Shown here: positions 4,738-22,307 of the stretch, piece by piece | How the letters are laid out: each line of letters starts with the position of its first letter | Numbering within the stretch: the first letter of the stretch is position 1 | From: a virus | Direction: 5' to 3' (one strand) | DNA length: 47,628 bases | Virus record (IMG/VR): IMGVR_UViG_3300025141_000169 | Location: 1 to 47,628 of that record | Notes under the pieces: generated by a model | The model's database searches: none | What the model was told of the DNA's origin: nothing | What the model saw: the letters and a program-made list of their open reading frames with translations, nothing else | Position numbers and translations under genes: made by a program

Positions 4738-6579
4738 TTAACCAGTCATGTTCTCAACAACAACAACGCCGTACATATCAGGACGAACCATCTTCTTGGC
4801 GTAGCGAGTCAACACGCCCTTGCGGGGCACGAAGTCTTCCACACCAAAGATAGTTGGCGTAACCTGCAGTGGCACGTATGGAGCGTATACGAAGCCGCTT
4901 TCAAGGAAGCTATTGCCTCTGCGGCCAACCAAGACCACAGAACGCGGGAAGTAAGGATCAACGTAAACGTCGAACTTCTTACTCATAGAGCCAACCTTAG
5001 CCGCACCAACACTATTGCCCTTAAGCTCATCAGCGCTAATCGTTGCACGGAAGCCAGAGGTGAACTCAAGCAAATTGGCAACTTCTGGCGAGCAAACAAC
5101 AAAGTTCGCGCCGCCACGAAGCGTCTTACGATGAATACGAGCCGACACATCATTGATGGTTTCAGCAAGAGTCTCATACCACTCACTAACCGTACCGGTG
5201 AAGTCCGGTGGCGCTGTAGCCGATGCCAAGTTGACACCAGTTTCGCGATTCACAAACTTACCGGGTCGGCGTGACCAATAAAGACGGGCGCCGGTGGCAC
5301 CCTTGAGAAGATCCTCAAGAATCTCCTGATCAATCTCAAGCGCAATCTGCTCAGACAAAATGCTCGTAAGCTCGACTTCGGCGTCGAGATTGTGATAAGC
5401 ATTCAAATCCTGAGCAAGCTCTGGCGACCACTTCGCCTTGAGCTTCTTGGTCTCTGCCGTAACGCTGATCGAGTCAACCTGAATGTCGATCTCGGGGATG
5501 ACGAAGTTCTGGCCAGCCAGACCAGTGTGGGTCGATGACCCCACGCCGTCGCCGGCGCCTTCGTCCCAGAGATCCAAGTCGAGAGCACCGATCGAAGTTG
5601 TATTTGCATTTGCAAGATCTGCGCGTGACCATGAACACCCCGAATTCGTGATACCTCGCGTTGTGATAGCGCGAGATGAATAGTCGTTCGCCGCATCAGT
5701 ACCGAAATTGGTAATGATAGACTGGGTAGAACTGTAAAGAACAAAGATAACCTTACTCCTATCAGCCGGATCGAGCTTGGTTAAGCGACGAACGGTTGAT
5801 ACGGTCTGCGCACCGCTGGTGCCGGCTCCACTAATCTCCGAAACGTCCATAGCAATAAGATCATTAACACTAGAATTAGTGAAATCAGTCAATGTGCCGC
5901 TAGCGGCAACATAGTAATTGGTACCATCATTCGTCACATCCGGATCCCAACTCAGAATGCGCAACGAAGGCTCATCAGTAATTGCGTTACCCAGCACGCC
6001 AGCGCCACCACCTATGCCTGCTGCTTGTGCAGCGAGCACACCATCGTAGGAAACGTGAGGTTGCAACTCGATCTTCGCGACATTCGTACCAGAAGGCGAA
6101 GAATAGGCGTTATTCAAGCTGTAAAAACTAGTTTCAGCATTGGCGCCACCAAGGTTAACACCACCAGTAATATCAGCACCACGAACGGCGCCACCATAAA
6201 TTGATTGGCCGGCCGTTGCGCCGGCGTACTCGCGAGTGTTAGCAAACGTAAAGTCCAAGAAGAAGATGAGGCCCGAGGGCAAACTCATCGGCTGGACTGA
6301 AACCAATTCGTTGGCAATTAAGCCACCGAATACACGACGGACGATCGGAAACGCGACGGCTGCGAAGCCCTCAACATCACCAGCACTCATCGTGCTTGCT
6401 TCACGAAGAAGCTCTTTTGCTTGATTCTCAAGCAACCGCGCCATACTCTGTCGAGTGCGCTCATTGTCAAGTCCTTCCAAGAGGCCGGTCTTTTCCCACT
6501 TATTCAGTAGGGCAGCACCTTCCTTCTGGAGGTCGCGACTGACAATATTTTTTGTTAAACTTTCAACTATTGTAGACAT
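4738..6579 (-). CDS. Major capsid protein, gp23-like
   Basis: The main shell protein, 613 residues against 521 in T4 gp23. Recognisable segments are LLNKWEKTGLLEGL (24-37), MARLLENQAKELLRE (46-60), FPIVRRVFGGLIANELVSVQPM (77-98) and KLKAKWSPELAQDL (379-392) followed by ELTSILSEQIALEIDQEI. All align with T4 gp23. ELLRE/A at 56-61 fits the L/I-x-E rule of the gp21 protease and lies near the T4 maturation site (E65/A66), so cleavage after E60 is predicted. The extra length sits mainly between about residues 130 and 360, where T4 phages carry the exposed insertion domain. The gene is GC-richer than its neighbours, has an ideal ribosome site and ends at a terminator, as expected for the most abundant product. 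Confidence 0.95.
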   Translation of the reverse strand: MSTIVESLTKNIVSRDLQKEGAALLNKWEKTGLLEGLDNERTRQSMARLLENQAKELLREASTMSAGDVEGFAAVAFPIVRRVFGGLIANELVSVQPMSLPSGLIFFLDFTFANTREYAGATAGQSIYGGAVRGADITGGVNLGGANAETSFYSLNNAYSSPSGTNVAKIELQPHVSYDGVLAAQAAGIGGGAGVLGNAITDEPSLRILSWDPDVTNDGTNYYVAASGTLTDFTNSSVNDLIAMDVSEISGAGTSGAQTVSTVRRLTKLDPADRSKVIFVLYSSTQSIITNFGTDAANDYSSRAITTRGITNSGCSWSRADLANANTTSIGALDLDLWDEGAGDGVGSSTHTGLAGQNFVIPEIDIQVDSISVTAETKKLKAKWSPELAQDLNAYHNLDAEVELTSILSEQIALEIDQEILEDLLKGATGARLYWSRRPGKFVNRETGVNLASATAPPDFTGTVSEWYETLAETINDVSARIHRKTLRGGANFVVCSPEVANLLEFTSGFRATISADELKGNSVGAAKVGSMSKKFDVYVDPYFPRSVVLVGRRGNSFLESGFVYAPYVPLQVTPTIFGVEDFVPRKGVLTRYAKKMVRPDMYGVVVVENMTG

Positions 6580-6593: not shown

Positions 6594-7850
6594 TTAGTTA
6601 ATAATGTCAATTCCTGCCAATCGTTTCATTCGCGCAGCAAAAGGATCCTTTTCAGGTTCTTTAGCTTTTGGATTACGAACTAACAATTGTGAAGAACGTC
6701 GTGAAACTGCCTCACCCAGCGATTCCGGACCTCTTGAACGAGTTACCTGCACTGTGTTTTTTAACGTGTCATACACGATCTTCGCTTGTTCCACACTTTC
6801 AGTTTTTTCTAGACTTTCGACAATTCTATCTTTCTGTCGTCTATTAAGAGATCGGTCAGACAAAACCTTATTTGTGTAGAGCATCTTAACGTTCATTAAT
6901 TGAGACTCTTCAAATTTCTCTTTGAGTCCATTAAAGCCCTCAATTAATGTGTTATATTGCTTTTTAAAATCATTAAATGTTTTCTTACTCTCTTTGAGAG
7001 CTACATTTAATGATTTATTCTTTTGAATTAGTAAATTGTTTTTCTTTACTAATGATTCGTTCTTTTTTTCAAGATCTTCGGCTTCTTCAACCATCTGGGC
7101 TAGCAACAAATTTATGCTACTTTGCTCATCAGAGGTGCCGAAAGAGTCATTTGTTTCTTTGGCATATTTGTAATCTACCTTAATGCCTTCTTCTACATAC
7201 TTATCATCTTCTTCAACTTCTTCTTCGTCATCATCGTCGTCGTCTTCTTCATCGTCGTCTTCGTCGTCGTCTTCTTCATCGTCGTCTTCGTCTTTCCCAG
7301 TAGCAGAGCTAAGTCCCACCAGCTTGTCTTCGTCAATGGCGGCTTCGGCCAGCATGTTATCATCCAAATCAAGAAGCTCTTCGCCAAGCAACTCTTCCAA
7401 CAAATCCTCTTCTATTTCCAGAGACTCGGCAAGGTTGCGCGCTGTTGGGCCACGATCTGGATCCATTTCATAATCATTTAGGGCATCTAAATTAATAGTA
7501 ATTAATTCGCCCTCTTGTGGGTATTCTGTATATCCAATGGTCGCACCATCTAAAGCCGCATATTCAACCTTGCTTGGCAAATGATCTTTATCTTCGCCGG
7601 TTGCAGCGAAATCAACAGGCGTTGGTGCGGGGCCGGTGGCTGTGGCGGCTTCGTCGGCGCCTAAATCCATACCACCGCCTGCTCCAAGATCGGCACCCAA
7701 ACCAGCAATATCTTCTTGCTCCAGCAATTTTTCCATTTGGTTTTTAATTTCACCTGAATATTTTTCAATAATAAGATGCTCTGCATTGCGAACTGCTGCG
7801 TCTTTTAACGACTTGGCGTCTATTATAGCCTGCTCTAACATTGATGACAT
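6594..7850 (-). CDS. Prohead core scaffolding protein, gp22-like
   Basis: A 418-residue internal scaffold on which the capsid shell assembles before it is cut up by the protease. It has an N-terminal helix (MLEQAIIDAKSLKDAAVRNA), a Gly/Asp-rich stretch with LGADLGAGGGMDLGAD, several L/I-x-E sites, an extreme Asp/Glu run of about 30 residues (encoded at about 7199-7290 by GAA/GAT-type repeats), then about 140 residues of coiled coil, and a C-terminus RMKRLAGIDIIN like the T4 gp22 end. T4 gp22 has 269 residues; the surplus is mostly the acidic region. It lies immediately upstream of the capsid gene, as gene 22 does in T4. The family call is strong from architecture and position. Confidence 0.85.
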   Translation of the reverse strand: MSSMLEQAIIDAKSLKDAAVRNAEHLIIEKYSGEIKNQMEKLLEQEDIAGLGADLGAGGGMDLGADEAATATGPAPTPVDFAATGEDKDHLPSKVEYAALDGATIGYTEYPQEGELITINLDALNDYEMDPDRGPTARNLAESLEIEEDLLEELLGEELLDLDDNMLAEAAIDEDKLVGLSSATGKDEDDDEEDDDEDDDEEDDDDDDEEEVEEDDKYVEEGIKVDYKYAKETNDSFGTSDEQSSINLLLAQMVEEAEDLEKKNESLVKKNNLLIQKNKSLNVALKESKKTFNDFKKQYNTLIEGFNGLKEKFEESQLMNVKMLYTNKVLSDRSLNRRQKDRIVESLEKTESVEQAKIVYDTLKNTVQVTRSRGPESLGEAVSRRSSQLLVRNPKAKEPEKDPFAARMKRLAGIDIIN

Positions 7851-9686: not shown

Positions 9687-10082
9687 TCAAATTAATTTGC
9701 TCCAATTACCCATGCCGGGAATATTAGCAATATCAACACCAGAATCATTTGGATCCACGTCTGCCATTGAGCCACCTTGTGGTGATCCATTGGCCTCAGT
9801 CTCAGTAAAAGCGCTTGTTCCCTCAAAAAGATCAATTCCCCCATAAGCACCTGATCCGATAGCGCCCAGCAATTGTTTCTTTTTATCTTCAATTTGTTTG
9901 TTTGGAGGCTTTCTCTTTGGGCTCTTTTTCTGCTCAACAATTGGTTGTGGGGCGACTTTTCCAGAAGCCCCCCTAATTGATTCTGAAATAATTGTAGAAA
10001 GAACGCCGTCTTCAAAGATAATTTCTTTGATGCATTCTTTAATTAATGGCTTGAGCATTTTTTTTAATTTTTGCTCTTTCAC
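9687..10082 (-). CDS. Unknown prohead-region protein, possible core component
   Basis: A 131-residue protein starting at GTG 10082 with AAGGAAG eight bases upstream; the GTGA junction overlaps the protease stop. The N-terminus is an amphipathic helix (KKMLKPLIKECIKEIIFEDGVLSTIISESIRG) followed by a basic Pro/Lys linker and a Gly/Asp/Asn-rich tail ending GMGNWSKLI. Its place next to the prohead protease matches the small T4 core genes 67 and 68, and it has IFE and other L/I-x-E sites. I know no function for this family; core or chaperone roles are inference only. Confidence 0.6.
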   Translation of the reverse strand: MKEQKLKKMLKPLIKECIKEIIFEDGVLSTIISESIRGASGKVAPQPIVEQKKSPKRKPPNKQIEDKKKQLLGAIGSGAYGGIDLFEGTSAFTETEANGSPQGGSMADVDPNDSGVDIANIPGMGNWSKLI

Positions 10083-10684
10083 TTTTTTTCTTCCTTTAGA
10101 ATACTATTAAGTACCCTATTAATCCGATCTGCTTTTGTAAACACGGAGTTTTCTTTTCCTTCACGAAGCATATAAGCCCCGGTTGTTGAGGGTTCTGAAA
10201 CCAAATCAAAACAAATTAATTGAAAATCATCCTCTACATATGTTTTGCCGTTCTCTTCGCGAGTTGAGCCAAGACCACGAGATGAAATGCCCAATTTAAC
10301 GCCGCCGCGAAGCAATTCTTTAACTGTCTTGCCCGGGCCCGTTTCTAAAATGCGCACTTTTCCAACAACACTGTCGCCTTGCATGGCGATTTGAGTAACC
10401 AAGTGTGAAACGTTCTTTAGCTCAACAACTGAACTTTCAGGGTGATCTAATTCACCAACTGCTCGACCTTCTCTAACAATTTTTTGATAATTTTCAACTT
10501 CTCTTTCTAAAATATCTCGCGAATAAACTCTTCCATTGCCATTTAACGAATCTGCCCTTTGCATGACGCCGGCCAAATAAACCTCGTCACCCTCGTCCAT
10601 CAGCTTTTGTTCTTTTTCAGTAAGAAGCTCACGATCCATTGAAAGTTCTAAAAATTCAGTTAAAATGAGCTTATTTGACATCAT
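10079..10684 (-). CDS. Prohead maturation protease, gp21-like
   Basis: A serine protease of the herpes-assemblin-like clan that cuts scaffold and capsid proteins inside the prohead, 201 residues (T4 gp21: 212). The fold markers are in order: VYLAGVMQRADSLNGNGRVYSRDIL (36-59), GELDHPE with likely catalytic His81, VSHLV (92-96), VVGKVRILETGPGK (107-119), and KLGISSRGLGS (130-140) with the nucleophile serine in the ISSRG motif, followed by FQLICFDLVSEPS. The start overlaps the 74-residue gene's stop (TAATG); a second ATG lies one codon in. Cleavage after L/I-x-E is the known T4 specificity and fits sites in several proteins here. Confidence 0.93.
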   Translation of the reverse strand: MMSNKLILTEFLELSMDRELLTEKEQKLMDEGDEVYLAGVMQRADSLNGNGRVYSRDILEREVENYQKIVREGRAVGELDHPESSVVELKNVSHLVTQIAMQGDSVVGKVRILETGPGKTVKELLRGGVKLGISSRGLGSTREENGKTYVEDDFQLICFDLVSEPSTTGAYMLREGKENSVFTKADRINRVLNSILKEEKK

Positions 10685-16775: not shown

Positions 16776-17124
16776 TTTTTTCTCTTCCCTCTATGTTTTT
16801 TACATAGCACGTAAAACAACAAGCGTGTTTATACATGCATATTTCATCTTTAACATTTAGCCCATATTTTGAACACACTGGACAAACATCAAAGCCACTC
16901 TTATTAATTAGTTTTGTGGAAACTAAAATACCATCCACTTCTTTGTGCTCTTTCCTAGAAGAGCGGGCGTCTTCTTTCTTGCGCTGCTCTTTAAGCTGCT
17001 CTAAATATTCTTTTTCTTTGTCCTCATCCCAATAGCGACTTGGATTGTGCGTTGCCACATCCCCATATTTTTTAGCTATAGCCTTTTCTAAACGAGCAAT
17101 ATAATCCCAGTCTTTTTCCTTCAT
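16759..17124 (-). CDS. Zinc-ribbon protein of unknown function
   Basis: A 121-residue protein; I use ATG 17124, which overlaps the upstream stop as ATGA, rather than the longer frame to 17202 that begins inside the neighbouring gene with an unlikely Cys/Trp-rich sequence. The first 70 residues are a charged helix (DWDYIARLEKAIAKKYGD, then KEYLEQLKEQRKKEDARSS). The C-terminal half has a metal-binding ribbon: C81-x2-C84, C96, C102-C103 and C106, followed by KNIEGREK. It may bind nucleic acid or a protein partner in packaging, given its place two genes before terminase, but that is inference. Confidence 0.65.
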   Translation of the reverse strand: MKEKDWDYIARLEKAIAKKYGDVATHNPSRYWDEDKEKEYLEQLKEQRKKEDARSSRKEHKEVDGILVSTKLINKSGFDVCPVCSKYGLNVKDEICMYKHACCFTCYVKNIEGREKNGNHI

Positions 17125-17570
17125 TTTGCCGTTTGAACCGCCGCATAAAAAATACCCATCGACAAAGCAACGCCGCCCAAGAACCCACCAGCAAACCACC
17201 AATGGCTGTATGCGTTGGGCTGCTCAAGTGTTATTTTTTGAAGATGGTCGATTTGGCCATTTTTAATTTTTAAAATAGCGTCGTATTTCTTTTGTGTGGC
17301 GTCCAGCGAAGCCTTGACAGTAGAAGTGAGCATATCACACCTAGCTTTTTCTTTAGCTACGTTATTTTTAAGCTGCAATGTGCACTCTAATTGTCCTTTT
17401 TCTTTGGAAGCCAACAATACTGCGTTTGCTTGGTAGTTATAAAGGATCCCATTGAAGGGGGCCTTCTGGCCTTGTTTTATTTCTGCTACTTTGGGGGTTT
17501 CTGCAAGCGACGTTGATGGCAACCAAGCCAAATTAAAAATCAACAACGTTGCGCAAATCTTTTTCACCAT
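17121..17570 (-). CDS. Exported coiled-coil protein with C-terminal membrane helix
   Basis: A 149-residue protein with a Sec-type signal peptide (MVKKICATLLIFNLAWLPSTSLAE, likely cut after SLA), a motif QGQKAPFNGILYNYQA, a coiled-coil region of about 65 residues, and a hydrophobic helix at about 126-145 (WWFAGGFLGGVALSMGIFYAA). The KAPFxGIL motif with signal peptide, coiled coil and tail anchor recurs in phage proteins of unknown function. It overlaps the preceding membrane gene by 38 bases out of frame, a layout reminiscent of spanin pairs, but no lipobox is present. An envelope or lysis role is possible, unproven. Confidence 0.65.
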   Translation of the reverse strand: MVKKICATLLIFNLAWLPSTSLAETPKVAEIKQGQKAPFNGILYNYQANAVLLASKEKGQLECTLQLKNNVAKEKARCDMLTSTVKASLDATQKKYDAILKIKNGQIDHLQKITLEQPNAYSHWWFAGGFLGGVALSMGIFYAAVQTAK

Positions 17571-17982
17571 CTGTTAATACCAATTCAAAGCCAAATTCTT
17601 CAGCGATCTTTTTAGCTCTGCCCTCTGGATCATTATGAGTCTCTTTGACAATTTTTTTAACTTTTTTCTTTTCCCATTCGTGAAGTTTAAGGTTTTGCTT
17701 CTTGTATTCGTCATCAAGCTTCATGACAGTCTTGGCATAGTCCACAACGATCTTGTCTCTTTTTGTCAACTCTTCTTTATGGGCCAGATTAATCACCTTA
17801 AGCTCTTCTTTGTGAGACTCTTTAGACATTTTGAATGCCTGCTTAACACTTTCGGTGTTGCTGCCCTTTCTTAATACAAGGAACATAGCGACGGTGTAAG
17901 CAGCGAGAGCGAAGTATTGCCAGTATTTAATGACTGTTGCATATACTTTCTTAAAAAACGTTTTGACTGCTAACCAAGTCAT
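17533..17982 (-). CDS. Membrane-anchored coiled-coil protein, i-spanin-like layout
   Basis: A 149-residue protein with one N-terminal membrane helix (about residues 19-38, YWQYFALAAYTVAMFLVL) preceded by basic residues, then a long Lys/Glu-rich coiled coil (SKESHKEELKVINLAHKEEL, LHEWEKKKVKKIVKETH). This type II topology resembles inner-membrane spanins. The downstream gene starts 38 bases before this one ends, in another frame. The first seven codons (MTWLAVK) are repeated upstream at 18406 as a remnant mini-frame. The start overlaps the preceding stop (ATGA). Spanin function is a suggestion from topology only. Confidence 0.6.
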   Translation of the reverse strand: MTWLAVKTFFKKVYATVIKYWQYFALAAYTVAMFLVLRKGSNTESVKQAFKMSKESHKEELKVINLAHKEELTKRDKIVVDYAKTVMKLDDEYKKQNLKLHEWEKKKVKKIVKETHNDPEGRAKKIAEEFGFELVLTDGEKDLRNVVDF

Positions 17983-17988
17983 TTATAC
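17966..17988. repeat. 23-bp direct repeat, copy A
   Basis: A 23-base sequence identical to 18390-18412 (begins ACTGCTAACC, ends CATTTATAC on the plus strand). It spans the stop of the second cargo-type gene and the first codons (MTWLAV) of the membrane coiled-coil gene. Flanks on the stop-codon side are also similar, with a one-base shift. Confidence 0.9.
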
Positions 17989-18374
17989 TCTTCTTCTGGG
18001 CCCTCAAGCTCTTTATCATCAATGAACGAATCGTCGCCTGCGAGATCGCCCGGAGTTATACCTAAATTTTCTTCCATATCATGAATAAACATCTTTGAAT
18101 TTAATTTAAATATTTCAAGGAATTGCTTCTGTTTTTCACTTGGCGCTCGCCCAGCACCACCGGTCTTTTCAATGTGCTCCCGATCGCCGCTCCAGCCCGC
18201 TATAGCGTTATAGGTCTCGCGCATATGCATAAATGTATCAGAAAGCTTTTGTATCCACCAGTTCTTCGGGTCGGGGTCGTGCCCCGGGGGGCGCTTAAGG
18301 CCGAGTGCCTTCTCGATGGGGGTTCCGCGTGCTTCTTTCAAGTGCTTCCGCCAGTTTTCCATTAATAGCTTCAT
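17979..18374 (-). CDS. Candidate internal (cargo) protein with capsid-targeting-like peptide
   Basis: A 131-residue protein of unknown fold. Its first 15 residues, MKLLMENWRKHLKEA, closely match those of the gene upstream and have the architecture of T4 internal-protein targeting peptides (MKTYQEFIAEA type): short, basic/aromatic, ending in Leu-x-Glu/Ala. Cleavage after E14 by the gp21-type protease is predicted. The remainder is hydrophilic: a Pro/Asp/Trp-rich segment, a Gly/Arg-rich part and an acidic tail with TPGDLAGDDS. There is no membrane helix. The start overlaps a 12-codon mini-frame's stop (ATGA). The cargo role is an inference from the peptide. Confidence 0.65.
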   Translation of the reverse strand: MKLLMENWRKHLKEARGTPIEKALGLKRPPGHDPDPKNWWIQKLSDTFMHMRETYNAIAGWSGDREHIEKTGGAGRAPSEKQKQFLEIFKLNSKMFIHDMEENLGITPGDLAGDDSFIDDKELEGPEEEYK

Positions 18375-18406
18375 TGTTTATTTACCTTAACTGCTAACCA
18401 AGTCAT
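18371..18406 (-). pseudogene. Remnant 5' end of the membrane coiled-coil gene (mini-frame)
   Basis: A 12-codon frame MTWLAVKVNKQ-stop. Its first seven residues, and 17 of the bases encoding them, repeat the start of the gene at 17982. It begins directly after the TAA of the upstream gene and its TGA overlaps the ATG of the next gene, so it could still pass ribosomes along as a coupling leader. It looks like a leftover of cassette duplication or insertion rather than a functional peptide gene. Confidence 0.6.
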
Positions 18407-18412
18407 TTATAC
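18390..18412. repeat. 23-bp direct repeat, copy B
   Basis: Identical to 17966-17988, 424 bases away. It covers the TAA of the 173-residue gene and the first codons of the remnant mini-frame. Together the two copies bracket the 131-residue candidate cargo gene. Confidence 0.9.
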
Positions 18413-18928
18413 CTCTTCTGTTGGTTCTTCCACGGAAACCTGGCCAGTGGATTCACCTTCTCCCTTTTCTGCAACAGCGGTCCAATCGCCTTTTTTGCCA
18501 ATCTCTCTAGCATCAAGCAATGTCGGATCGTCTTCGATGGCATCAGCAAGTTTCTTAAGAAGCTCTACAACGCGCCCCTGTTCTCCTTCTGGGATTATAT
18601 CATCTAAATATACCGCTTTATAAAATGGATTTCTCTTCTCCTCGTCGTCAACTGCGCGTAGATCTTTAGCAAACAAAGGCGCTAATCTCTTTTGATTTTC
18701 GGGATCCCGCTGCGGGTTCAACGATCGTATCCTTGCTGCATAATCATTGAAATGGCCTGTAATTGTAAGACCAATCCATTCTTTCGATCTCGGTGAGATT
18801 TCTTTACTTTCTTCTCCTTCAAGATCGCCCGGGCCGATGGCAGCCAATTCGTCTGCATCGTCATAACCATCGTCGTCAGTATCAACCTCCGCCAAATACT
18901 TTCGCCACTCATTTAATATTTTTTTCAT
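18407..18928 (-). CDS. Candidate internal (cargo) protein with EF-hand-type loop
   Basis: A 173-residue acidic protein. It starts MKKILNEWRKYLAEV, sharing M1, K2, W8, R9, K10, L12 and E14 with the following gene; LAE at 12-14 is a predicted gp21-type cleavage site. Residues 16-27 (DTDDDGYDDADE) match the canonical 12-residue calcium loop at positions 1, 3, 5, 6, 9 and 12. Then comes GPGDLEGEES, echoed by TPGDLAGDDS in the other cargo candidate, and an unrecognised helical domain (SKEWIGLTITGHFNDYAARI). The ATG follows AAGGGTAAG and directly abuts the holin-like gene's stop. Packaging in the head and calcium binding are inferences. Confidence 0.65.
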   Translation of the reverse strand: MKKILNEWRKYLAEVDTDDDGYDDADELAAIGPGDLEGEESKEISPRSKEWIGLTITGHFNDYAARIRSLNPQRDPENQKRLAPLFAKDLRAVDDEEKRNPFYKAVYLDDIIPEGEQGRVVELLKKLADAIEDDPTLLDAREIGKKGDWTAVAEKGEGESTGQVSVEEPTEEV

Positions 18929-19144
18929 TTACTTACCCTTCTTCAACAACTGCCCTGATTTCCAAGCTGTGGCAATGTCTGCCAAGCCCTGAGAGCCTAT
19001 GTAAGCAAGGGATATTGCAACCCATTGCTCGCTATTAACGTATTCTGCGAGAAGCAAAGAGGTTGTGGAAAGCCACACCAACAGTTTTCTCGACATAAAT
19101 CTTTCTAAATGTTTATCTGCAAATGCTTTCATTCTTGCCATCAT
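18929..19144 (-). CDS. Small two-helix membrane protein, holin-like
   Basis: A 71-residue protein starting at ATG 19144, where GAGG stands just upstream; the longer frame to 19198 lies inside the nuclease gene. A basic amphipathic N-terminus (MKAFADKHLERFMSRK) is followed by two hydrophobic helices at about 21-36 and 41-58 and a basic C-terminus (GQLLKKGK). Small size, two helices and a charged tail fit holin or antiholin proteins, but no endolysin is recognisable in the window, so the call is tentative. It lies 7 bases after the Mre11-Rad50 fusion gene. Confidence 0.6.
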   Translation of the reverse strand: MMARMKAFADKHLERFMSRKLLVWLSTTSLLLAEYVNSEQWVAISLAYIGSQGLADIATAWKSGQLLKKGK

Positions 19145-19151
19145 TTTACCC

Positions 19152-22100
19152 TCACTGATTAACGTAAGCATACCCGTTTGGTACTTTTGTAATATCAATT
19201 GTCATATCAACCACATCTTTAAGACTGTCTACATGAGTAATTAGTAGGGTGATATTGAAATAACTTTTAATCAAATCCAAGATACGTACAAACCCTTCCA
19301 TGTTATCTGCATCCAGTGAAGTTCCCGGCTCATCCAAAATAAAAATGTTGCTTTTGGGCATATTTGAAACGTTTAATAGCGCAATACGAATGGCTATCGC
19401 GGCCAAAGTCTTCTCTGCTCCCGACCCATTCTCCAGTGGTCGCGATTCATGCTTGGGGTGCTTAATTAAAATGTCCAGTTTGTTATCGGTGTTCTCAAAA
19501 AAGACTTCGAATTCAACCACATTGGCCAGAACCTTGCTGATCTCTTCATTAATGACAGGAAGGCCCTTCTTGATTAGGTCAAAAGAGATCCCTCCACTGT
19601 GCATACAGCGCATAAAAAGGTCATAAGCCGAATATTCAATGCTCAGCGCCTCTTTTTCTTGCTTTTGTTCTTGCAGGTTCTTTAATTTTTGTTCGGTGGC
19701 GCCCTGTTGGCCCACCAACTCCAGTATTTCGGCATTGCACGACTCCAAACAGTGAGTTAAACTATGAACTTCTTTCTGTTTTTCGTCGCGCTGCCTTACA
19801 AGCCCATTGTAATCCTCGATGGCCTCTTTATTTTCGTTATAATAGCCAATCTTCTTCCGATATTCGCCTATTGCAACCTCTGAAGTTTGTATTTTATTGG
19901 TATTTCGTTCAATTTCCAGCCGCAATCTTGTCTGTTCTTGTTGAGAAGCGTCCTTTTTATTAACCAGCTTCTCATAATTGTCCAAATGACGATCAATTGC
20001 TTTAGGGTCCAGTTCTTTAATTTCATTTTTAATGTTGGTTTCCTGATTTTGAAGCGCTTCAATCATTTTTTCGACGACATCTATCTTTTGAGATGCCCCA
20101 TATGCCTCTTTAATAAATTGACAGCTAGTAACATAAGACTTTCCACAAGGAATCGCATCCAAAGTCTTTACTTGATTATTAAAAATCTGGAATGTCTTTT
20201 GTTCATCCAAAATTTGTTGAGCCAGTTCCTCCAAATGCTTAAGTTTTGATGCTTCTATGGTCTTTTTTCTTTTTAAGTCCTCAATATCAAAATCACGCAA
20301 GAATTCCTTGGCCTTTTCAATAAAAGCGTTGTTTCTCCCCACCTTGGCCTTCAAATTACGACTATTTCTTTTTAAATCGGAGATTTGGCCCCTTGTTTCC
20401 TTTAAAGTTGCCTTTAGATCTTCAATGTTTATGGGTTCTGCCGGCACAGCGTCAATTTTGTCATTAAAGTCCTTTAAAGCGGCCTCGATTTCATGAAGGG
20501 CGGCTTGAAGGTCGGTACACTCATTCTTTTTCTTCAAAGAGTTGGCTTCGGCAACAAAAATATTATTTTTGGCCTCCTTAATCTCTTCATCGAACTCTCT
20601 TCCTTCCAGCCGGCGCAATGCTCCGCGCAAATCCATGGCGTCTTCTTTGGCCATCTTAAATTTCTTTTCAAAAAACTCTAAATCAAGAAATTTAGCTAAA
20701 ATTTCCTTACGTCTTGTAGAGCCTTCGTTAATAAACTGTAAGGCGCCTGCCTGAGAGGACATTGAGGTCATTAAGAAGTCTTCAAGGGGGCCGAACTTGC
20801 TGCGAATGTTCTTCTCAGTCCCTCCGCGCTCAGTGGCGTTGTGACTTAAGATTTCTCCCGAAACATGGTCCACCGATTCAAAATCTAAGGTTGTTTTAGC
20901 CTCGTCCGTAACTTTGCCTTTAAGTTTCTTAACGTACTTATCCGATCTCCTAGTAATCTTGTAAGTTTTATTATTCGCCTCAATCTCCAAGTAACCAGAT
21001 CCATACTCTTTATGCTCATTAATGATATTGAACGTCTTTCTAATGTTCTTAGAGGTGTTATTATACATTGTGTAGAGTAAACTATCAATAATGCTTGACT
21101 TGCCACTGAAATTTTTACCAAATATTCCAACAATCCCAGACAATTTAGCAAAATCAATAGCGTTATCCTCCGCATAATTAAAAAGATTGTTCCACTGCAG
21201 TTTTTTAACCTTCCAATGCACATTGCGCGATAGATCCTCTGTTGCTTCTACGAGCCTATTGTACTTAGCATTAAGTTCAAAGACCCCTTGAAGAGTTTCA
21301 GTGTCCGGACTGTAGTCTTTTAAATACTCTTTAATTAGCTCCTGCTGAATCTTTTCATCTCTTAGGTTTTCCTTAATTGCGGCGTCGACCTTATCTTCAA
21401 TGTTTGAATCCAAGAGACTTCCCTTGTTTAAGAAAGTAACGCTTTCTGGCTTAAATCGACTTTTTGCAATATCAACTGCTTTCCGAAGCTTTTCAAGAGG
21501 AATGTTACTCTGGGAAATCAATCGTAGTCGTGCATTAGGAGGGCACGTGAATTTATTTGGTATGCGGCCCGTTTTAGTAAGATAGACACTTATAAAGGGC
21601 TTCGGATTTTGAAAAATAGCCCGCTCACAAGTAAAATTTCCCTTACCTTCAATATCCCATAGTAAAATACCCTTATCTACGTCTTCTCCAAAGTTCTGTT
21701 GAATGGTTGAGCCGGGATAAGCCACCGTTCCTGCGCTATTTAACACCTGTGGCTTGTGAATATCGCCCAAAAAAGCATAATCAAAGTCATCAAAAATGTT
21801 AATTTCATGATCTGTCTCGCGCATTACCCACCCGATGTCCGTTTTGCACTCATAAATGGATCCATGATAGGCCGCAATGTTAATTTTAGTAGGATCGGAG
21901 GGCTTTGTCCAGCTTTCTTCATCAAAAACCGACAAAACGTTCAAACAAAACTCGTTATTAATGTGTACCTCCCCAGAATTCTTACATAAATGAAGATTTG
22001 GATGATTCAAGGCCCTTGTAATGGGTGAAATTGCATCTTGACGATAAGAATTCCTTAAATTTCCATCATGGTTGCCCAAAACAATATAGGTTGGAGCAAT

Positions 22101-22307
22101 ATCAGCCAAATTTTTAAGAAAATCAGAGCACATTTGCACGAATTCGGGTGAAATTTGCGTTTTTGTGTGTGCAATATCACCACAATGAACAATACAGTCT
22201 ACTTTTTCTTCTCGCAGGGTGGTGTATAACTGTTCAAAAACCGCCCTATATTCTTTATGATATTTTAAATTGCGAATGTGCGTATCTGCTATGTGAGCAA
22301 ACTTCAT
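19152..22307 (-). CDS. Single-chain Mre11-Rad50 (gp47-gp46 / SbcD-SbcC) fusion
   Basis: A 1051-residue recombination nuclease joining two subunits that are separate genes in T4 and E. coli. The N-terminal phosphoesterase has IADTH (D8, H10), CGD (D44), LGNHD (N79, H80), YHG (H148) and GDIHK (H184). A linker leads to the ABC ATPase: Walker A GKNFSGKSS (397-405), a long coiled coil broken at 721-729, signature ENGSGAEKT (959-967), Walker B IFILDEP (988-994, E993), D-loop SLD and H-loop THVD. All catalytic residues are present. The hook apex has C721-x7-C729 instead of the usual C-x2-C. It probably resects DNA ends for recombination-dependent replication. It follows the primase gene by 7 bases. 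Confidence 0.92.
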   Translation of the reverse strand: MKFAHIADTHIRNLKYHKEYRAVFEQLYTTLREEKVDCIVHCGDIAHTKTQISPEFVQMCSDFLKNLADIAPTYIVLGNHDGNLRNSYRQDAISPITRALNHPNLHLCKNSGEVHINNEFCLNVLSVFDEESWTKPSDPTKINIAAYHGSIYECKTDIGWVMRETDHEINIFDDFDYAFLGDIHKPQVLNSAGTVAYPGSTIQQNFGEDVDKGILLWDIEGKGNFTCERAIFQNPKPFISVYLTKTGRIPNKFTCPPNARLRLISQSNIPLEKLRKAVDIAKSRFKPESVTFLNKGSLLDSNIEDKVDAAIKENLRDEKIQQELIKEYLKDYSPDTETLQGVFELNAKYNRLVEATEDLSRNVHWKVKKLQWNNLFNYAEDNAIDFAKLSGIVGIFGKNFSGKSSIIDSLLYTMYNNTSKNIRKTFNIINEHKEYGSGYLEIEANNKTYKITRRSDKYVKKLKGKVTDEAKTTLDFESVDHVSGEILSHNATERGGTEKNIRSKFGPLEDFLMTSMSSQAGALQFINEGSTRRKEILAKFLDLEFFEKKFKMAKEDAMDLRGALRRLEGREFDEEIKEAKNNIFVAEANSLKKKNECTDLQAALHEIEAALKDFNDKIDAVPAEPINIEDLKATLKETRGQISDLKRNSRNLKAKVGRNNAFIEKAKEFLRDFDIEDLKRKKTIEASKLKHLEELAQQILDEQKTFQIFNNQVKTLDAIPCGKSYVTSCQFIKEAYGASQKIDVVEKMIEALQNQETNIKNEIKELDPKAIDRHLDNYEKLVNKKDASQQEQTRLRLEIERNTNKIQTSEVAIGEYRKKIGYYNENKEAIEDYNGLVRQRDEKQKEVHSLTHCLESCNAEILELVGQQGATEQKLKNLQEQKQEKEALSIEYSAYDLFMRCMHSGGISFDLIKKGLPVINEEISKVLANVVEFEVFFENTDNKLDILIKHPKHESRPLENGSGAEKTLAAIAIRIALLNVSNMPKSNIFILDEPGTSLDADNMEGFVRILDLIKSYFNITLLITHVDSLKDVVDMTIDITKVPNGYAYVNQ

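Follow-up and report, generated by a model that had tools for sequence, protein, structure and literature searches.

The prohead protease gp21 of bacteriophage T4 cuts its substrates after the motif [LI]-x-E, and two T4 genes start with MKTYQEFIAEA. The internal proteins of T4 have only a capsid-targeting sequence (CTS) in common, and foreign proteins fused to this CTS are packaged (PMC3012670). Its propeptides are removed by gp21, and the proteases of T4 and of giant phages cut C-terminal to glutamate (PMC5694885). In the giant phages phiKZ and SPN3US, head and ejection proteins are processed in this way by the prohead protease, and two SPN3US paralogues have a common N-terminal 15-mer (PMC5694885). 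Here we describe an N-terminal peptide of 14 residues, hereafter the tag, that is carried by two small genes on a 47,628 bp stretch of viral DNA (IMG/VR record IMGVR_UViG_3300025141_000169, positions 1 to 47,628; hereafter the window) and by many otherwise unrelated proteins of uncultured T4-like phages. The 47.6 kb record is probably a fragment. We propose, with a probability of roughly 0.85, that the tag is a capsid-targeting sequence that would be cleaved.

The tag resembles the T4 system in several respects. As in IPI, IPII, IPIII and Alt, a short N-terminal peptide is the sole conserved part of diverse candidate cargo, and as in the T4 CTS (MKTYQEFIAE/A, the slash marking the cut) it ends in [LI]-x-E before alanine. 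The phages concerned have a gp21-type protease, Gp23 and Gp20, and their candidate cargo includes an ADP-ribosyltransferase (ART-PolyVal here, Alt in T4). Unlike the T4 CTS, the tag has 14 residues rather than 10, with W8 invariant and R9 near-invariant, and there are up to 12 matches per record, more than 100 clusters of bodies behind the tag and two interchangeable tag classes. The T4 genome contained no match to a tag profile, leaving the cut-site pattern alone in common; by sequence the tag thus falls outside the T4 CTS, although it would work in the same way. The giant phages differ in their motifs (A-x-E in SPN3US, S-x-E in phiKZ) and in their propeptides, which are mostly longer than 100 residues and are no general label on unrelated enzymes. 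The domain kit of the candidate cargo overlaps with that of the polyvalent proteins of phages and conjugative elements, ART-PolyVal being one example; those proteins hold many domains per chain (PMC5512222), whereas here mostly separate small proteins carry a common tag. The principle is therefore known from T4, and the tag class and its cargo repertoire appear undescribed; the tag peptide strings had no match in the literature searched, with preprints and most subscription papers outside its scope.

The two tagged genes of the window lie at 17979–18374 (gene 1, 131 amino acids) and 18407–18928 (gene 2, 173 amino acids), both on the minus strand and with the coordinates given in an earlier, sequence-only reading of this DNA. 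Their N-termini are MKLLMENWRKHLKEA and MKKILNEWRKYLAEV, respectively, with the tags themselves at 18333–18374 (MKLLMENWRKHLKE) and at 18887–18928 (MKKILNEWRKYLAE), again on the minus strand and each with a predicted cut after E14. The sequence-only reading had called these N-termini near-identical: the gapless alignment and the identity of M1, K2, W8, R9, K10, L12 and E14 hold, but the term was too strong for 7 of 15 residues. A start-anchored WRK[YH]L motif was present in these two open reading frames (ORFs) only when all six frames of the window were examined. With a profile derived only from tags of other loci, the two window tags reached 44.0 and 31.7 bits, whereas the runner-up among 14,472 positions in the window proteins reached 8.0 bits. 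The bodies of both proteins had no match in Pfam or PHROG, a PDB sequence search with them gave nothing significant, and no homology to a known internal protein (IPI–III or Alt) was found, as tblastn of the bodies against T4 returned no match. A tblastn comparison of both proteins with 50,697 phage genomes yielded nothing beyond weak, unrelated matches, none of which covered the tag. AlphaFold models of both proteins place the tag in a separate N-terminal helix, with a mean predicted local distance difference test score (pLDDT) of 56–58 that is too weak for reliance, and Foldseek found no match to these models in PDB at E ≤ 0.001. The body of gene 1 is without a recognised fold, and that of gene 2 is also present in a second locus (L002) under a different version of the tag. 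We regard both window proteins as candidate small cargo proteins without an assigned activity. An acidic EF-hand-like stretch (DTDDDGYDDADEL) occupies residues 16–28 of the gene 2 protein (18845–18883), right behind the tag; in L002 this body has a similar stretch at its C-terminal end, and L022 has one behind the tag of another protein.

Searches with each window protein identified one syntenic relative, L002, that matched over the whole gene 2 protein, and six further loci in which the match was confined to the first 14–30 residues. The consensus of the 14 residues is MKLLLENWRKYLxE. The suggestion that the peptide could serve as a finder of cargo genes was borne out for candidate genes across a phage group, with at least 119 stretches matching a degenerate DNA pattern of the tag in viral contigs. 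Applied to 257 Gb of cellular genomes, the same pattern matched three times, twice away from the start of an ORF. The third (L212, 4812–4853, MKEIITEWRKYLAEA) lies at a plausible start in the chromosome of an Aminicenantes metagenome-assembled genome and may be due to chance or a prophage remnant. In all, 272 unique tagged ORFs were collected from 123 loci, many in tandem runs and frequently distant from the head genes, and the 15 large tagged records searched contained 1–12 tag matches each at E ≤ 0.1. A short tag query against the 50,697 phage genomes gave a single weak match (E 3).

The tag is separable from the proteins that carry it. Single-linkage clustering of 271 bodies at E 1e-4 produced 114 unrelated clusters, including 59 singletons, and an alignment of the 114 cluster representatives showed little conservation except MKLLxENWRKYLxE. 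Pfam domains among these representatives comprise GNAT, ART-PolyVal, protein kinase, zeta toxin, AAA_33, tRNA ligase phosphodiesterase and NUDIX, in addition to M23 and C39 peptidases, HAD, RNase_T, nucleotidyltransferase and others. The check proposed in the sequence-only reading, a search for the N-terminal pattern ahead of unrelated domains, accordingly returned a short N-terminal peptide common to otherwise unrelated proteins. In the remaining ORFs of the same loci the motif occurred 104 times, in 95 cases within the first 20 residues. Descent of the tagged proteins as divergent paralogues of one fold was rejected, as the bodies span many folds.

Conservation across the 272 ORFs reaches 3.6 bits at E14, then drops to 0.9 bits at position 15 and 0.2–0.5 bits beyond. 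The 134 ORFs that do not fit the search pattern show the same drop past residue 14, and the result was therefore not created by that pattern. The tag thus ends in the gp21-type motif [LI]-x-E, and this proposed end is preserved in tags that are one residue longer: E14 is absent from 24 of the 272 ORFs, of which 16 have E15, and L, I or M stands at position 13 in all 16 of these (for example WRKYLLTE) compared with 4 of 248 unshifted tags (Fisher P 3e-22, a value that is optimistic because related sequences were counted; the 16 bear varied bodies). One body family (VHGYIKPE...; L015 2179–3006, L004 7589–8413, L125 2634–3458, L044 2078–2893 and L203 683–1504) carries strongly diverged tags, all of which retain tryptophan or another aromatic residue and a terminal F[LI]xE.

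According to Pfam the window encodes Gp23, an S77 protease, Gp20 and a T4-type terminase. The matching protease that had been claimed at 10079–10684 (minus strand) belongs to Peptidase_S77, the T4 gp21 family of prohead core serine proteases (PF03420, E 6.7e-25; PHROG head maturation protease), and is the predicted cutter of the tag. Both S77 and Gp23 are encoded in 13 of 13 tagged records longer than 130 kb, a count that covers tagged records alone; the tagged records without them are shorter fragments. The major capsid protein Gp23 of the window (4738–6579, minus strand) has a precursor arm ending in LLRE/A, the same cut pattern as in the tag; all 16 sequences examined, including that of the window, have an arm that ends in LL[RK]E. 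When the tag profile was lengthened by one residue, this precursor arm (MARLLENQAKELLRE) came fourth among 14,437 positions, a likeness that is only suggestive. Several contigs have tag variants on genes adjoining the protease. A conserved 83-residue protein with a tag variant (MSLDxxWxxFLNE...; L035 5504–5815, L099 3828–4079 and L102 10774–11025) is present in many of these phages and is a candidate core protein.

A second tag (T2), MKITKSxLKxIIKEELxxVLxE, was found on many small unrelated proteins, such as those at L002 9231–9779, L006 1342–2121 and L004 11992–12288, with 59 ORFs in the loci collected by then and at least 120 stretches in a pattern search. Its 14 residues (MKITKSxLKxIIKE) have I-x-E at positions 12–14, E14 having been part of the search expression. 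Large records located through T2 encode S77 in 11 of 12 cases, and seven of them carry the first tag (T1) too; a T2 query against the 50,697 phage genomes gave one weak match. Homologous bodies occur under either tag, and the cleanest pair meets at the predicted cut (T1 ...FLQE/AITLDIEVGD..., T2 ...IISE/ALELDIEEGD...; 65% identity over 54 residues). The T2 body is up to 77% identical over 44 residues to another T1 member, and in some other T1/T2 pairs the common part is a short domain only. In the window, a conserved small protein adjoining the protease (9687–10082, minus strand), itself a candidate prohead core protein, has a start that resembles T2, which suggests that the second tag may copy a core protein.

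The tag also appears to be mobile. In 29 pairs of unrelated bodies the tag DNA is identical at 41 or more of 42 positions, while the next 60 nt are near random (18.8/60). Gene 1 of the window forms one such pair with an unrelated body in L006 (41/42 bases), the match extending nine bases upstream. The L002 copy of the gene 2 body is identical to it at 103 of 114 amino acids and 314 of 342 nt, and the L002 tag is identical to the tag of window gene 1 at 37 of 42 nt versus 30 of 42 for the tag of gene 2. Given near-identical tag DNA on unrelated bodies, together with this mismatch, the tag apparently travels as a cassette of DNA, with recombination as the probable route. As judged from sequence, the tag is a separable, recombining 14-residue module ending in [LI]-x-E, under selection as a protein and found in phages with S77 and Gp23.

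Such near-identical DNA on unrelated bodies could also be expected if the common start were a nucleic-acid element, such as a translation enhancer or a regulatory or recombination site, to which the peptide is incidental; GAA as the codon for E6 in 216 of 224 cases and the AT-rich codons 2–7 would likewise suit such an element. However, all six codons are used at each of L3, L4, R9 and L12, and E14 uses both of its codons freely, a breadth of synonymous variation that argues for selection on the peptide and led us to reject the explanation in its pure form. One-residue insertions retain L-x-E, and the DNA identity is better understood as reflecting how the tag spreads. We give this explanation hardly any credence. 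Alternatively, the tag could be an uncleaved localisation or docking peptide for a target other than the prohead (the replisome, a host target, a membrane or a phage compartment), which would suit a common N-terminal peptide on many enzymes and tagged genes that often lie far from the head genes. This leaves unexplained the shift of L/I/M-x-E together with the glutamate in longer tags, the second tag that ends in I-x-E at equal length, the presence of S77 and Gp23 in large tagged records and the same pattern at the predicted Gp23 cut, and we consider it improbable. Slightly less probable again is a structural role, in which the tagged proteins would be packaged as scaffold-like or core components of the head, be cut in maturation and have no function after injection. 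T4 core proteins are likewise cut by gp21 (PMC5694885), and the window bodies have no enzyme match, one of them having an acidic stretch; but the recognisable bodies elsewhere are mostly enzymes or effector-like (kinase, GNAT, ADP-ribosyltransferase, NUDIX), and the tagged sets vary among genomes, unlike conserved structural genes.

We therefore prefer a cleaved capsid-targeting sequence, as the sequence-only reading had proposed, and the predictions of that reading that could be tested on sequence support it. Several points weigh against it. The tag profile had no match in four cultured relatives (T4, immuto, Mel-JY01 and RM378), the body of one family is found behind a different N-terminus as well (L098 9384–9833), and 8 of the 272 ORFs have glutamate at neither position 14 nor 15, two of them ending in I-K-E at 16. 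The S77 and Gp23 count, moreover, covers tagged records only. If the tag is a capsid-targeting sequence, it would bind as a short helix to the assembling prohead core, or to the inner shell, and any protein fused to it would become built into the prohead. The S77 protease would then cut after E14 during maturation and release the cargo within the head, from which it would exit with the DNA at infection. General delivery of tagged cargo into the host is, on balance, the outcome we favour, with clearly less assurance than targeting itself. We lean to a similar degree towards the wider proposal that uncultured T4-like phages load proteins by a general system based on two or more interchangeable, cleavable 14-residue tags and free recombination of tag and cargo, in which each phage would load its own set of proteins (up to about a dozen, from more than 100 enzyme or effector families) and deliver it with the DNA at the onset of infection.

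Phage-injected proteins are hard to identify without virions, and a specific tag that can be read from sequence makes a genome search possible, in this case for a group without a tagged isolate in the collections searched. The search gives a list of candidate injected effectors with possible roles in anti-defence, RNA repair or host modification. With two swappable tags, the rule by which prohead core and S77 protease recognise a tag becomes directly testable, and the tags could act as a packaging handle.

Along the minus strand of the window the gene order is tagged genes, terminase, portal, protease, an acidic gene in the scaffold position and capsid gene; the order in T4 is 17, 18, 19, 20, 67, 68, 21, 22, 23. 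The acidic protein (6594–7850, minus strand), for which Pfam and PHROG gave no family match, is by position (that of T4 gp22) and composition a candidate scaffold and possible receptor of the tag. Among annotated capsid proteins of cultured phages, the closest (approximately 45% identity) belong to Flavobacterium phage immuto and Microcystis phage Mel-JY01. Small proteins with hydrophobic stretches flank the tagged genes (17121–17570, 17533–17982 and 18929–19198) and may form a lysis or membrane cassette, with no convincing family match for those searched. A 1051-residue ORF at 19152–22307 has, as read by eye, a metallophosphatase-like start and an ATPase part with a P-loop (GKNFSGKSS); it is an apparent fusion of the T4 gp47 and gp46 types, and the same layout is found in L002.
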